Below, in pieces: positions 1,233 through 48,823 of a DNA stretch of 64,000 nt. The translations under genes and the position numbers were made by a program. Source of the stretch: Lachnoclostridium sp. An196 (GTDB lineage Bacteria; Bacillota; Clostridia; Lachnospirales; Lachnospiraceae). The stretch lies in contig NZ_NFJZ01000007.1 in the NCBI RefSeq assembly GCF_002160135.1, positions 1-64,000 of the forward strand, given 5' to 3'. Numbering within the stretch: the first letter of the stretch is position 1; each line of letters starts with the position of its first letter. The notes below the pieces were generated by a model, which was not told the DNA's origin, did no database searches, and saw nothing but the letters and a program-made list of their open reading frames with translations.

Positions 1233-2183
1233 ATGGAATCTTTTTTATTCAGCTTAAATGCCACCATGCCCGTTTTTCTTGTTATGATCCTGGGATGGGT
1301 TCTCATGCGCGTCCATTTTTTCAGTGATGAATTTGTAAAAATCGCGGATAAATATGTCTTTAAAGTCGCCCTTCCGGTACTTCTTTTTGAAGATATTGCC
1401 ACCGCGGATATTACAGAGATTTTTGACCTTGCCTTTATCCTCTTCTGCATGATTTCCACCATTGTCATGTTCCTGGCGGTCTGGATCCTAAGCGCGCTGC
1501 TGATCCGGGATAAATCCATGGTAGGAGCCTTCGCCCAGGGCGCCGCCAGAGGAAGCGCCGCCATCCTGGGAATCGCGTTCGTACAAAACATCTACGGCGC
1601 CCCCGGTATGGCTCCGCTTATGATCGTATCCGCGGTCCCTTTTTATAATATCCTGTCAGTGGTGATCCTGACTTTCGGCTCCAGGGACCAGATCGGGATG
1701 GATAAAAAATCCCAGATCCGCGCCGCCTGCATCGGAGTGGCCAAAAATCCTATCATATGGGGCATCCTTGCCGGGCTGCCATTTGCCCTTCTGCATATCC
1801 GGATACCTGCCATTCCCTCCACAGCCATCTCCTATGTAGCCAATACGGCGACTCCCATCGCCCTTCTGACCATCGGAGCCGGCTTCCAGGGACGCCAGGC
1901 ACTCTCCAGGCTGAGGCCCGCACTGGCTGCCAGCTTCATCAAACTGATCGGGATTCCGGCTGTCTTTTTTCCTGTTGCTCTGCGCTTCGGCTTCCGGGGA
2001 AGCGAACTGGTAGCGATTCTGATCATGCTTGGCTCTCCCACTACAGTTTCCTGCTATATCATGGCCAAAAACATGGGAAACGATGAAGTCCTTACCTCCA
2101 GCATTATCGTTCTCGCCACTCTGTTTTCCTCCATAACGTTGACCGGATGGATCTGGTTTCTGCGTACACAGGGCCTGATCTGA
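1233..2183 (+). CDS. AEC (auxin efflux carrier) family permease
   Basis: Integral membrane transporter of the Mem_trans/AEC family, which in bacteria exports or exchanges organic acids; the substrate cannot be told from sequence. The 316-residue product has about ten hydrophobic segments in two halves, with the family's NPIIWG and conserved Gly/Pro-rich segments. The frame is open upstream to 1101, but the ATG at 1233 is chosen because AGGAG at 1220-1224 lies eight bases before it and the longer N-terminus is not membrane-like. It stands alone between the sortase and the murL-murD pair. Confidence 0.8.
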   Translation: MESFLFSLNATMPVFLVMILGWVLMRVHFFSDEFVKIADKYVFKVALPVLLFEDIATADITEIFDLAFILFCMISTIVMFLAVWILSALLIRDKSMVGAFAQGAARGSAAILGIAFVQNIYGAPGMAPLMIVSAVPFYNILSVVILTFGSRDQIGMDKKSQIRAACIGVAKNPIIWGILAGLPFALLHIRIPAIPSTAISYVANTATPIALLTIGAGFQGRQALSRLRPALAASFIKLIGIPAVFFPVALRFGFRGSELVAILIMLGSPTTVSCYIMAKNMGNDEVLTSSIIVLATLFSSITLTGWIWFLRTQGLI

Positions 2184-2233
2184 AGCCGCCGCAGATGCTT
2201 TTTCGCTGCCTTTCTATTTTGGGCGGTCTGTGA

Positions 2234-2313
2234 TATAATGTAACGTAACAGTTCAGGACGGCGAAAAAACGGGGACAAAAGCAGGCGTTAAATGTGCCGT
2301 CCTGAACTATTAC
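2234..2313 (+). promoter_or_regulatory. Promoter plus long hairpin, copy A of a two-copy element
   Basis: A -10 box TATAAT (2234-2239) is followed after five bases by an 18-bp stem with one mismatch: 2245-2262 pairs with 2296-2313 around a 33-base loop. The stem begins CGTAAC-AGTTCAGGACGGC. The same TATAAT-GTANCGTAAC-RGTTCAGGACGGC arrangement recurs at 7323-7375. It lies just upstream of the murL ribosome site, so it would be the 5' untranslated region of the murL-murD message. Confidence 0.65.
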
Positions 2314-2338
2314 AATGTTCAGAAAAAGGAGCTTTTCT

Positions 2339-3724
2339 ATGAAAACCTATGAATCCTGCCGGCGTGAATTTCCGGTCTTTTTGTATAAAAATTATACAGT
2401 GGAGGATGAAAACTCCGAACTGCGGGTAACCTATCACTTTGAGATCCCCGGATTATCCTCTTTTGATCCTGTCTGGCGTTTTCCGAAAAAGGATACTATA
2501 CCCCTTCAGGCCGAAGGAAACCTTACCCTTCAGAAAATGCTGTTTGGTCTTGGCATGGTAGAACTGATCAGCTACTGGAAGATCGCCTGCCCGCCGGAAG
2601 TCAGAGTCCAGTGCGGTCCTCTTTCTCCGGAACAGATCCGCTGGTGGAAAGATCTGTACTTTCTTGGACTGGGAGAATTTTTCTATACCAACGGGATCCA
2701 GGCAGATTCGGATACTTTTATGAACCTGCGCGCAGATGCACCTGAACTTCCAGGAGTTCCCCGTCCCGCTTCAGAGGCGGACGGATGTCTGATCCCCATC
2801 GGCGGCGGCAAAGACTCCGCCTGCACGATTGAACTGCTGAAAAAAAGCGGCCTGAAACTGAAAACCTATATCATTAATCCCAGAGGAGCCACTCTGGAGA
2901 CGGTCCGTGTTTCCGGCCTGTCCATAGATGACAGCATCCATGCCGGACGCACCCTGGACAGACGGATGCTGGAGCTGAATCAGGAAGGTTATCTTAACGG
3001 GCATACGCCGTTCTCCGCGCTTGTAGCTTTTTCTTCCCTGATCACGGCGTATCTGCACAATTTAAAATATATTGCCCTGTCCAATGAGGCCAGCGCCAAC
3101 GAAAGCACGGTTGCCGGAAGTACCGTCAATCATCAGTACTCCAAAAGTTTTAAATTTGAGCAGGATTTTCATAATTACGAGAAAGAATATATACAGAGCG
3201 GCATCTACTATTTCAGCATGCTCCGTCCTCTGTCGGAATTCCAGATCGCAGAATATTTTTCAAGGCACCCTGCTTATCATGAGGTCTTCCGCAGCTGCAA
3301 CGTGGGAAGCAAACAGGATATCTGGTGCGGCCATTGTCCGAAATGTCTGTTCGTCTTCCTGATCCTGTCACCATTTCTCAGCCACAGTCGGCTGACAGAA
3401 ATTTTCGGTACAGATATGCTGGAAGACAGATCCATGCTGGAAGACTTTCAGAAACTGACCGGACTGACAGAAGAAAAACCTTTCGAATGTGTGGGAAGCC
3501 GGGACGAGGTAAACGCTGCCATCTGTCTGACCATCGAACAGATGGAGACTTCCGGCGCTGCGCTGCCCGCCCTGCTGAAATGGTACCGCGCGCAGCCGCT
3601 TTTTGAATCCGCGTTTCCGCACCGGCACGACTACGATTCTTTCTATGACAGGAATCATCTGCTGCCGTCCGCGTTTTTAAAGATTTTATCCGACGAATGC
3701 TATGGAGGAACACTGCCTTGCTGA
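2339..3724 (+). CDS. murL: Probable UDP-MurNAc-L-Ala-L-Glu epimerase (MurL-like PP-loop protein)
   Basis: In Xanthomonas, MurL inverts the terminal L-Glu of UDP-MurNAc-L-Ala-L-Glu to D-Glu using ATP, after MurD2 has added L-Glu. This 461-residue protein has the features expected: a unique N-terminal part (1-145), an adenine-nucleotide alpha-hydrolase PP-loop IPIGGGKDS at 152-160, an ANEST segment, and a C-terminal cysteine cluster (C-x8-C-x2-C-x2-C near 328-344). The partner gene murD overlaps its end, as in the Xanthomonas pair. The ATG at 2339 is preferred over one at 2315 because AAAAGGAG lies seven bases upstream. The assignment rests on the PP-loop plus murD linkage; another ATP-dependent ligase-like role is possible. 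Confidence 0.7.
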   Translation: MKTYESCRREFPVFLYKNYTVEDENSELRVTYHFEIPGLSSFDPVWRFPKKDTIPLQAEGNLTLQKMLFGLGMVELISYWKIACPPEVRVQCGPLSPEQIRWWKDLYFLGLGEFFYTNGIQADSDTFMNLRADAPELPGVPRPASEADGCLIPIGGGKDSACTIELLKKSGLKLKTYIINPRGATLETVRVSGLSIDDSIHAGRTLDRRMLELNQEGYLNGHTPFSALVAFSSLITAYLHNLKYIALSNEASANESTVAGSTVNHQYSKSFKFEQDFHNYEKEYIQSGIYYFSMLRPLSEFQIAEYFSRHPAYHEVFRSCNVGSKQDIWCGHCPKCLFVFLILSPFLSHSRLTEIFGTDMLEDRSMLEDFQKLTGLTEEKPFECVGSRDEVNAAICLTIEQMETSGAALPALLKWYRAQPLFESAFPHRHDYDSFYDRNHLLPSAFLKILSDECYGGTLPC

Positions 3725-5049
3725 AATTACTGCATGCTTTGATTAAGCAGAAAAATGTCCTGGTTCTTGGATACGGACGGGAAGGAAAATCCACGCTGCG
3801 CCGCCTGCTGCAGGCGGGAGGCGCGGCTTCTGTCACTGTGGCAGACCAAAACGAAGTTCATCCTGAGAATGCGTCCGTATCCGTAATATCCGGTCCTGAT
3901 TATCTGGATATCCTGGACCGCTATGATGTCGTTTTCAAAAGCCCGGGTATCGTACTTCCAAAAAATCCGGAGGCATATACCTGCCTGATCACTTCCCAGA
4001 TGGAAATCTTTTTCCAGGCTTATCGGGATCGGATCATCGGTATCACCGGAACCAAAGGAAAAAGTACTACCACTACCCTGCTCTATCACATTCTGAAAGA
4101 AAGCGGGCAGAATGTGGTACTGGCCGGAAATATCGGCATACCGGCCTTTGACATTTTAGAAGAGATCGGGCCGGATACTTCTATTGTCTGCGAACTGTCC
4201 TGCCACCAGCTGGAATATATCCATGTGTCTCCCCATATGGCCGTCCTTCTGAATATCCACGAAGAGCATCTGGACCATTACGGCACCATGGAAAAATATG
4301 TGCATTCCAAGCAGCAGATTTATTTTCACCAGACGCCGGATGATCTGTTGTTCTGCGGGATGGATGTACTCCCGGCGGAAGGAACCTGCCTCTCACAGAT
4401 CTATACCGTCTCTGATACATCTGTACAGGCAGATATTCGTCTTTCAGGGACATGCATTCATTACGGACAGCACAGCTATCAGATACCCGCAGATGATATC
4501 CACCTTTTAGGCCACCACAATCATCTGGATATTGCTTTTGTCTACGCTGTCTGCCATGTACTGAATCTCTCCGACAGGGACTTTGACCGGGGACTGAGAA
4601 GTTATGAGCCTCTCCCCCACCGGCTGCATTTTGCCGGTATCCGGGATGGCGTGCGTTACTACGACGACTCCATCTCCACCATCTGTGACACCACAATCCA
4701 GGCACTCAAAAGTGTTCCGTCCGTCGGAAGCGTCCTGATCGGCGGCATGGACCGTGGAATTGACTACGGGGATCTGATCCGTTTCCTGTCGGAAGACCAG
4801 GTGCCGCACATCATTCTGATGGAAGCCACCGGAAAACGCATTCTGGACGAAATCCATCGTGAATATCCGGATTTCCGACATCCGGAACGGCTGCATCCTG
4901 TGAAGGATTTAAAAGAGGCGGTCGCCTGCGCCAGAGAAGTGACGCCGAAAGGCTCCGCCTGTATCCTGTCTCCTGCCGCCGCCAGCTATGGCATTTTCAA
5001 AAACTTCGAAGACCGCGGAGACCGGTTCATTCAATATGTTTTTTCCTGA
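3718..5049 (+). CDS. murD: UDP-N-acetylmuramoyl-L-alanine-glutamate ligase (MurD/MurD2 type)
   Basis: Mur ligase that adds glutamate to UDP-MurNAc-L-Ala in the cytoplasm. The 443-residue product has an N-terminal UDP-binding fold with VLGYGREGKS, the ATP-binding GITGTKGKSTTT motif (about 108-119), a central HLDHYG/NHLD region and a C-terminal domain with DDSISTICDTTIQAL. I place the start at TTG 3718, nine bases after GGAGG (3704-3708), overlapping the murL stop by seven bases; an ATG at 3697 would lie before that ribosome site. Translational coupling to murL is expected. If murL is correct, this enzyme may prefer L-Glu (MurD2) rather than D-Glu; sequence alone does not settle this. A second, dcw-type murD may exist elsewhere. 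Confidence 0.88.
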   Translation: MLKLLHALIKQKNVLVLGYGREGKSTLRRLLQAGGAASVTVADQNEVHPENASVSVISGPDYLDILDRYDVVFKSPGIVLPKNPEAYTCLITSQMEIFFQAYRDRIIGITGTKGKSTTTTLLYHILKESGQNVVLAGNIGIPAFDILEEIGPDTSIVCELSCHQLEYIHVSPHMAVLLNIHEEHLDHYGTMEKYVHSKQQIYFHQTPDDLLFCGMDVLPAEGTCLSQIYTVSDTSVQADIRLSGTCIHYGQHSYQIPADDIHLLGHHNHLDIAFVYAVCHVLNLSDRDFDRGLRSYEPLPHRLHFAGIRDGVRYYDDSISTICDTTIQALKSVPSVGSVLIGGMDRGIDYGDLIRFLSEDQVPHIILMEATGKRILDEIHREYPDFRHPERLHPVKDLKEAVACAREVTPKGSACILSPAAASYGIFKNFEDRGDRFIQYVFS

Positions 5050-5053
5050 AACT

Positions 5054-5094
5054 ATCATACCGCTGCCGGGAAAGGATCCCGACAGCGGTATGAT
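5054..5094. terminator. Bidirectional hairpin between convergent murD and glpK
   Basis: A perfect 12-bp stem (ATCATACCGCTG at 5054-5065, CAGCGGTATGAT at 5083-5094) continues inward with a 4-bp CGGG/CCCG stem. It fills the 62-base gap between convergent genes. Neither side has a strong T-run, so termination efficiency is uncertain. Confidence 0.65.
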
Positions 5095-5111
5095 ATATCT
5101 GATCTGTTGTA

Positions 5112-6635
<1,524 letters not shown>

Positions 6636-47338: not shown

Positions 47339-48823
47339 TTACTTTCCTTTCTTCTGTTCTTCCGCCAGTTCTTCCAGGACTTCCCGGATCAGGACTCTCT
47401 CATCCATCGGATATTTGACCCCTTTGATCTCCTGGTAATCCTCATGTCCCTTTCCGGCCAGCACGATCACATCGCCTTTTTGCCCATGAGAAATCACATA
47501 ACGGATCGCTTCTTTGCGGTCCTTGATCTCCGCGTATTTTCCATCCGTCTTCGCCATGCCGGTCTTGATATCGTCAATGATCGCCTGGGGATCTTCGTAT
47601 CTGGGATTATCCGACGTGATCACGGTCAGATCTGCCAGTCTGCCGGACACCTCTCCCATCTCATACCGGCGGAGCTTGGAACGGTTCCCTCCGCAGCCAA
47701 ATACGCATACCAGCCGTTCCGGGTGATATTCTCTCAGGGTTTCCAGCAGGCTCTCAAGACTCATGGCATTGTGCGCATAGTCAATCATCAAGATGAATTC
47801 ATCCGACACCTTGACCATCTCGATCCGGCCTTTGACCTTCACTACCCGGAGCGCTTCTTTCAGGTCTGCTTCCGCCACCTTGAAATGCTCGCACACCGCA
47901 ATGGCAACCAGAGAATTATATACGCTGAATTTGCCCGGGATGTCGATCTCCACATCCATATTGACTTTTCCGGACACACGGTACCGGACGCCCATATATC
48001 CCGGACGCCCTACCAGTTCCATATCCGATGCGCGGTAATCTGCTTTTTCTGAAAATCCGATCGTCTCCAGTTCACAGGTATGCCCCTGCAGTACCATATC
48101 AAAATGAGAGTCATCCACATTTGCGATGCCAATGCGGCACTGTTTGAATAAAAGTCCTTTGCACGCCGCATATTCCTCAAAGCTTGCATGCTCGCCCGGT
48201 CCGATATGGTCCGGGGACAGATTCGTAAATATCCCGATCTCAAACGGGATTCCCGCTGTCCGGTGCATCATAAGCCCCTGAGAGGAAACTTCCATCACAC
48301 ATACCTGACATCCTGCTTCCGCCATGCGGGCAAAATATTCCTGAATCTGCCAGGACTCCGGCGTCGTATGGCTGGCCGGAATATGCTCCTCTCCGATGAT
48401 AATCTCAATCGTTCCGATCAGTCCCACCTTGTATCCTGCATGTTCCAGAATCCCCTTTACCATATAGGTGGTCGTCGTCTTTCCTTTGGTTCCGGTAACG
48501 CCGATCACTTTCATCTTGTCTGCGGGATGGTCAAACCATGCCGCGGAAAGGAGAGCCAGCGCATACCGGGTATCTTCCACCAGGATCAGCGTCACCTGGT
48601 CCGGAACAGCTACCGGGCGTTCCGCCACGACCGCCGCCGCTCCCTTCTGCACGATCTCATCCACATGTTCATGGCTGTCATAGGAAGCCCCTTTGACACA
48701 CACGAACAGACATCCTTCTGTCACTTTCCGGGTATCGCAGACCAGATCGCTGACCGTCCGGTCTGTATCCCCTTTTATCACTTCATACTGTAAGCCTTCC
48801 AGTAATTCCGAAACTGTTTTCAT
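47339..48823 (-). CDS. murE: UDP-MurNAc-tripeptide synthetase (meso-DAP adding)
   Basis: Mur ligase of 494 residues acting on UDP-MurNAc-L-Ala-D-Glu. ATP loop GVTGTKGKTTTTYM, SSQGL, and SDNPRYEDP: the DNPR tetrapeptide is the hallmark of enzymes that select meso-diaminopimelate rather than lysine. First gene of the long minus-strand run; its promoter shares its -35 box with the divergent carbamate kinase gene. Confidence 0.96.
   Translation of the reverse strand: MKTVSELLEGLQYEVIKGDTDRTVSDLVCDTRKVTEGCLFVCVKGASYDSHEHVDEIVQKGAAAVVAERPVAVPDQVTLILVEDTRYALALLSAAWFDHPADKMKVIGVTGTKGKTTTTYMVKGILEHAGYKVGLIGTIEIIIGEEHIPASHTTPESWQIQEYFARMAEAGCQVCVMEVSSQGLMMHRTAGIPFEIGIFTNLSPDHIGPGEHASFEEYAACKGLLFKQCRIGIANVDDSHFDMVLQGHTCELETIGFSEKADYRASDMELVGRPGYMGVRYRVSGKVNMDVEIDIPGKFSVYNSLVAIAVCEHFKVAEADLKEALRVVKVKGRIEMVKVSDEFILMIDYAHNAMSLESLLETLREYHPERLVCVFGCGGNRSKLRRYEMGEVSGRLADLTVITSDNPRYEDPQAIIDDIKTGMAKTDGKYAEIKDRKEAIRYVISHGQKGDVIVLAGKGHEDYQEIKGVKYPMDERVLIREVLEELAEEQKKGK

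Follow-up and report, generated by a model that had tools for sequence, protein, structure and literature searches.

How does Lachnoclostridium sp. An196, a member of the Bacillota, obtain the D-glutamate (D-Glu) of its cell wall? The question was raised by a two-gene locus, murL-murD, in a 64,000-nucleotide stretch of its DNA (contig NZ_NFJZ01000007.1, positions 1 to 64,000 of the forward strand), which we refer to as the window and which forms the start of contig 28 in a 3.25-Mb draft genome of 30 contigs (97.39% complete). Nearly all peptidoglycan carries D-Glu in its stem peptide, for which the glutamate racemase MurI is regarded as the standard source; MurI is also considered a drug target. 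The analysis presented here suggested that the MurD encoded in the window very probably adds L-Glu, which MurL would then epimerize to D-Glu. The elements on which the argument rests were as follows.

2339..3724, + strand: murL, 461 amino acids from the ATG at 2339; a MurL relative by model NF041275.
2801..2818, + strand: PP-loop motif GGGKDS, MurL residues 155-160, invariant in 43 aligned relatives.
3296..3346, + strand: MurL cysteine cluster (C320, C330, C333, C336), a possible metal site, invariant in the 43 relatives.
3704..3708, + strand: GGAGG, resembling a ribosome-binding site, within the end of murL and 9 bases ahead of the TTG at 3718.
3718..5049, + strand: murD, putatively of the L-Glu-adding (MurD2) type by TIGR01087, its Glu/Ile/Arg (E/I/R) signature, and its grouping with Xanthomonas sacchari MurD2.
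4264..4266, + strand: Glu, counterpart of residue 182 in Escherichia coli MurD and of E197 in Xanthomonas oryzae MurD2, as aligned with the E. coli and X. sacchari sequences.
4672..4674, + strand: Ile, aligned with residue 319 of E. coli MurD; E. coli itself and the MurDs read from MurI genomes have Lys.
4753..4755, + strand: Arg, aligned with residue 348 of E. coli MurD; the counterpart in X. oryzae MurD2 is R358.

The murL product matched NF041275, the NCBIfam model for MurL of Xanthomonadales, over profile positions 14 to 394 of 447 and far above chance (E = 2.7e-74, 250.3 bits), and it was 34% identical (131/381 residues, E = 3e-60) to the annotated MurL of X. sacchari, in which GGGKDS and the four cysteines were also retained. 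An earlier reading of the window from its letters alone (the sequence-only reading) had called this open reading frame (ORF) MurL-like and had placed GGGKDS at residues 155 to 160, and both points held. The C-terminal Cys cluster that it described was present, but it lay in the C-terminal half of the protein and not at the C terminus. The ATG at 2339 is preceded by AGGAG at 2327-2331, seven bases ahead; an alternative in-frame ATG lies at 2315, and this longer reading was used in the family scans.

A Pfam scan of the murL product found no family over cut-off, and a search of the PDB with the single MurL sequence returned only chance matches to fiber proteins. A profile built from 43 MurL sequences, when compared with the PDB, matched the PP-loop of TtuA (E = 7.7e-4). 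The same profile aligned with E. coli QueC (7-cyano-7-deazaguanine synthase) over 192 columns that covered the GG-DS loop and the C...CGHC..C motif of MurL, a weak match (probability 14%, E = 0.002). The motif and these weak profile matches were the basis for tentatively assigning a PP-loop fold to MurL, as in the PP-loop ATP pyrophosphatases; unlike QueC, MurL has an extra N-terminal region and a different substrate. TilS, NadE, ArgG, and CysH of E. coli were poorer matches to the profile than QueC, that of CysH did not fall at the PP-loop, and the control protein NusA gave an E value of 0.47.

The product of the adjacent gene scored 297.9 bits against the general MurD model TIGR01087 (cut-off, 211.95) and was 31% identical to X. 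sacchari MurD (E = 2e-34) and 28% identical to E. coli MurD. The TTG at 3718 was preferred as its start because GGAGG precedes it and because the starts of several paired MurDs agree. With this start, murD overlaps murL by the seven bases that the sequence-only reading had given; the alternative in-frame start, the ATG at 3697, would extend the overlap to 28 bases. In X. sacchari, murL likewise precedes murD, with an overlap of 20 bases.

The MurD2-MurL pair of X. oryzae (XOO_1320/XOO_1319), to which the window pair is homologous, is reported to ligate L-Glu and then epimerize it from L to D in a one-way reaction that depends on ATP and Mg and forms AMP (PMC8788868, PMC5808125); proteins from Micromonospora and Salinispora were assayed as well (PMC8788868). 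According to the same review, the choice of L-Glu by X. oryzae MurD2 depends on E197 and R358, and the E197D/R358K double mutant is a D-Glu enzyme, the E. coli counterparts being D182 and K348. With the reverse double change in E. coli MurD, L-Glu was still not accepted, and with K319T it was accepted (PMC8788868). The corresponding residues of the window MurD, E190 and R353, aligned with E206 and R367 of X. sacchari, nine above the X. oryzae numbers. At E. coli positions 182, 319, and 348, the window MurD was identical to X. sacchari MurD2 (E/I/R, hereafter EIR). This agreed with the earlier suggestion that the adjacent MurD could take L-Glu.

To place this signature in a wider context, three collections of genomes were used: a family sample of 150 genomes, one per genus; a class sample of 293 genomes, four of which (the An196 genome among them) were also in the family sample; and a scan of named genomes, in which the best 80 of at least 566 MurL relatives were kept. 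The family in question is probably Lachnospiraceae, judging from the nearest named relatives. The named and unnamed collections possibly overlap in species. In 74 of the 80 named loci, the gene immediately downstream of murL on the same strand encoded MurD, and these MurDs comprised 64 EIR, 9 DIR (Asp/Ile/Arg), and one truncated sequence. The MurDs of the 12 family-sample MurL genomes were EIR in 11 cases and DIR in one. All nine MurDs from further class-sample genomes were EIR; these came from nine of the 11 class-sample MurL genomes besides An196, G174 and G417 being left out. Ile and Arg (IR) at positions 319 and 348 were thus found in 94/94 readable MurL-associated MurDs, with Glu at position 182 in 84 and Asp in 10; the count leaves out L135 (the truncated MurD), G020 (no MurD over cut-off), and a second reading of G116. 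The MurDs read from 18 of the 126 family-sample genomes with MurI were all Asp/Lys/Lys (DKK), as in E. coli. The association of IR versus DKK with MurL had a Fisher value of 3.5e-21, shared ancestry being ignored. In a tree of 75 MurD rows, which included 21 of the 74 named-locus rows, a branch supported at 100/98 separated all 48 IR MurDs, X. sacchari among them, from the other rows. The exact positions of the X. sacchari and E. coli MurDs were unsure because both rows are long.

MurL and over-cut-off MurI, the latter searched for with model TIGR00067, did not occur together. MurL was found in 12 of 150 family-sample genomes and MurI over cut-off in 126, and no genome had both (0/12 versus 126/138; Fisher, 1.6e-11). 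In the class sample, MurL was found in 12 of 293 genomes from eight families and MurI over cut-off in 254, again with no genome having both (0/12 versus 254/281; Fisher, 5.9e-12). When both samples were pooled, MurI exceeded the cut-off in none of the 24 MurL rows, which represent 23 genomes, versus 380 of the 419 rows lacking MurL. Racemase matches below cut-off were present in three MurL genomes (G116, 1.5e-5; G135, 3.1e-7; G417, 1.3e-8). Exchanges of MurL and MurI were also seen within genera: G349 versus the MurI-carrying members of g165, and G344 versus G231 and G435 of g229.

The draft genome of An196 followed this pattern. Searches of it yielded no match to MurI, no protein of the Asp/Glu racemase family (PF01177), only a partial match (36.5 bits, in a 359-residue frame) to the D-amino acid transaminase model TIGR01121, and a single MurD over cut-off. 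These included the searches for murI and for a second murD that the sequence-only reading had suggested. Because neither a racemase nor a convincing D-transaminase was detected, the murL-murD pair, which that reading had presented as a second route to D-Glu, is probably the only route in this genome. The absence of a detected glutamate racemase is also what has been reported for bacteria with MurD2-MurL.

The pair was said to lie outside the division and cell wall (dcw) cluster, and this was confirmed: the dcw cluster is on contig 30 (G000:C30), not on the contig of the pair. There, 87 bases without a murD separate mraY, which exceeded the TIGR00445 cut-off at 306 bits, from an ftsW-type gene, whose best match was TIGR02614 at 330.6 bits, slightly below the cut-off of 337.5. 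In the MurI genome G027, MurD was located between ORFs read as mraY and ftsW. Compared with the canonical MurD and MurI of E. coli and most sampled Clostridia, the window MurD is of the same family, but it differs at three positions (E/I/R and not D/K/K), is not between mraY and ftsW, and is found in a genome in which MurI was not detected. The gene for the next enzyme of the pathway is also in the window:

47339..48823, - strand: murE, adding diaminopimelate (DAP); NF001126, 518.2 bits (cut-off, 373).

The NF001126 family of MurE enzymes is named for action on L-Ala-D-Glu; therefore, the dipeptide should be inverted before the MurE step.

We propose the following mechanism. The murL and murD genes would be a translationally coupled pair, and MurL would invert Glu at the UDP-dipeptide stage at the expense of ATP. 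The PP-loop domain would adenylate the alpha-carboxylate of Glu and so acidify the alpha-proton, which would be removed and returned on the opposite face; hydrolysis would then free the D-Glu product and AMP, and MurE would add DAP after the inversion. QueC acts via an adenylated carboxylate. From its similarity to QueC, MurL may be a PP-loop enzyme laid out like QueC, with the Glu carboxylate as the group that it adenylates; we infer that the PP-loop carries out this step. By analogy with the X. oryzae pair, the window pair would be expected to perform the same reactions.

A number of observations weigh against this interpretation, and several of them would fit a MurD that is an ordinary D-Glu ligase, with MurL having another job and D-Glu coming from a missed racemase or an importer. 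The window MurD exceeds the cut-off of the general MurD model, and the window MurL falls short of the 700-bit cut-off of NF041275, a model named for Xanthomonadales; the cut-off was reached by none of the 24 clostridial MurL rows. Judged by sequence, the protein is a member of a wider MurL kind and not of the Xanthomonadales equivalog. A PF01177 protein over cut-off was found in four of the 12 family-sample MurL genomes (G029, G116, G135, G137), An196 not being one of them. TIGR00067 had matches in no more than 10 of the 14 control genomes, over cut-off in eight, and might therefore overlook a divergent MurI, and the TIGR01121 cut-off was reached by no sampled genome; matches of at least 200 bits to TIGR01121 were found in 13 sampled genomes, none of them a MurL genome. 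Most of the sampled genomes are drafts, and shared ancestry is not accounted for in the Fisher tests on MurL/MurI and on residues. Unexplained absence of MurI does exist, as four genomes that are 95-99% complete (G042, G047, G091, G132) had a DKK MurD and no MurI over cut-off, MurL, or strong D-transaminase match. (A PF01177 protein of 46 bits was noted in G132.) MurD was not visible at six of the 80 named MurL loci, namely L121, where it would lie off the contig end, and L116, L120, L122, L124, and L131. We nevertheless regarded an ordinary ligase as very unlikely because 94/94 readable MurL-associated MurDs, and 0/18 from MurI genomes, had I at position 319 and R at position 348, because MurL and over-cut-off MurI were never found together in the two samples, and because MurL and MurD are fused in a single frame in G170. 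This fusion (L168:1475-4531), one open frame of 1019 residues, has an EIR MurD part; its genome is listed as a single contig and gave no match to MurI.

Incompleteness of the assembly offers another account, in which murI sits in a gap and both routes run in parallel. The draft does consist of 30 contigs and is short of complete, but none of the 24 MurL rows, including the one-contig genomes G170 and G338, had MurI over cut-off, and the empty dcw slot for murD is in the interior of a contig; we considered this explanation even less likely than an ordinary ligase. Least likely of all was a pair that adds L-Glu but whose MurL no longer epimerizes it, so that the wall retains L-Glu. IR-type MurDs in five sampled genomes that had no full MurL would suit such a wall. 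The window MurL, however, retains the residues invariant in the alignment of 43, and the MurE of An196 belongs to the family acting on L-Ala-D-Glu.

Those five genomes also weigh against the proposed pathway. Neither MurL nor over-cut-off MurI was found in 12 sampled genomes. MurD passed the cut-off in 11 of them, as DKK in six and as IR in five (G025, G041, and G086 EIR; G089 and G128 DIR). IR-type MurD can therefore exist without a recognizable full MurL. A second MurL search of the 12 genomes, made with an 11-row alignment, found nothing except a 43-bit partial match in G086. There, a 250-residue ORF (L160:3060-3809) directly before the L-Glu-type murD resembles the N-terminal part of MurL; it has no PP-loop or Cys cluster and is possibly a decayed murL. 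In the MurD tree, the five MurDs nested among MurL-paired ones, which suggested that MurL was probably lost from these genomes. G128 is 69% complete and had a 200-bit transaminase match, G025 had a PF01177 protein (130 bits), and no D-Glu source was found in G041, G086, and G089 by the MurI, PF01177, and transaminase searches. When the ORFs beside the five murDs were read by eye for a replacement epimerase, no shared neighbor was found; the neighbors were GpsA-like, serpin-like, MurE-like, transporter, and FRG-like. These genomes either have another inverting enzyme or have no D-Glu, or MurL and MurI were missed, or the residue rule is lax. That some of G025, G041, G086, and G089 invert Glu by another enzyme or keep L-Glu in the wall seemed to us unlikely, with a modest chance of being so.

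Two further genomes, G111 and G119, fit MurL-dependent D-Glu synthesis imperfectly. Both kept a canonical DKK murD even though no MurI was found, and the MurL pair was elsewhere. By eye, the DKK murD of G119 was between mraY-like and FtsW-like ORFs, and that of G111 followed an mraY-like ORF. The two look like intermediate states. The canonical-type murD of G111 (L046:1489-3168), beside its mraY-like ORF, has a long insertion that is charged and of low complexity, which might reflect relaxed constraint.

The pathway itself is known, and its use in Bacillota is without a report in the literature searched. In the text consulted of a 2021 review, the MurD2/MurL pathway is said to be limited to relatively few genera, among which no Bacillota are listed (PMC8788868). 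In the text consulted of this review and of PMC5808125, MurL is reported from actinobacteria and from Alpha- and Gammaproteobacteria; relatives of low similarity are listed for cyanobacteria, one fungus, and one amoeba, and none for Bacillota. Unlike Xanthomonas, the host of the window is one of the Bacillota. Among the matches listed in our scan, the nearest named MurL relative was 93% identical and came from an uncultured Lachnoclostridium. The named carriers listed included Lachnospiraceae, Ruminococcus flavefaciens, Pseudobutyrivibrio xylanivorans, and Mordavella massiliensis (the genomes of these three species were not searched for MurI), as well as Erysipelotrichales, Oscillospiraceae, and Bacteroidales metagenome-assembled genomes (MAGs). 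The MurL pathway may explain gut genomes reported to be without murI. One example is Roseburia intestinalis, which appeared to have no murI in a comparison of Roseburia genomes, where exogenous D-Glu or an altered wall was suggested (PMC7478625). This species was absent from the 80 MurL loci kept out of at least 566. If the proposed pathway is correct, inhibitors of MurI would spare such species, and inhibitors of MurD2/MurL would not.

A tree of 58 MurL rows, including 35 of the 80 named ones, placed four Bacteroidota rows (MAGs) together amid Bacillota rows, a placement that hints at transfer of MurL between phyla. A tblastn search of plasmid records with the window MurL gave four matches, one of which was the annotated murL of X. 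sacchari. The others, annotated as hypothetical, were L055:3875-5275 and relatives on two further Pseudonocardia plasmids. No murD was annotated near the MurL relative in the one of these plasmid regions that was opened, and the plasmid proteins are possibly peptide epimerases with another substrate. A search of viral contigs gave 48 pattern matches and no MurL relative among them. Four of the MurL loci without a visible murD (L116, L120, L124, L131) were from Oscillospiraceae or Ruminococcus MAGs, mostly rumen by title, and the roughly 4 kb flanking each MurL to the left and right contained no murD; in G116, murD was 2.7 kb from MurL.

A scan of positions 2000-5300 for promoters and terminators detected nothing promoter-like ahead of murL and nothing terminator-like behind murD, and the counts were below those of shuffled sequences. 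One further element was noted downstream of the pair:

5053..5095, no strand: inverted repeat with 13-base arms, a possible shared terminator between the convergent murD and glpK.

This repeat has no T-run and was absent from the output of the terminator scan. Upstream of the pair, the window contains a class B sortase gene at 180-1100 (TIGR03064, 193 bits) and a gene for a membrane transport protein at 1101-2183 (PF03547).

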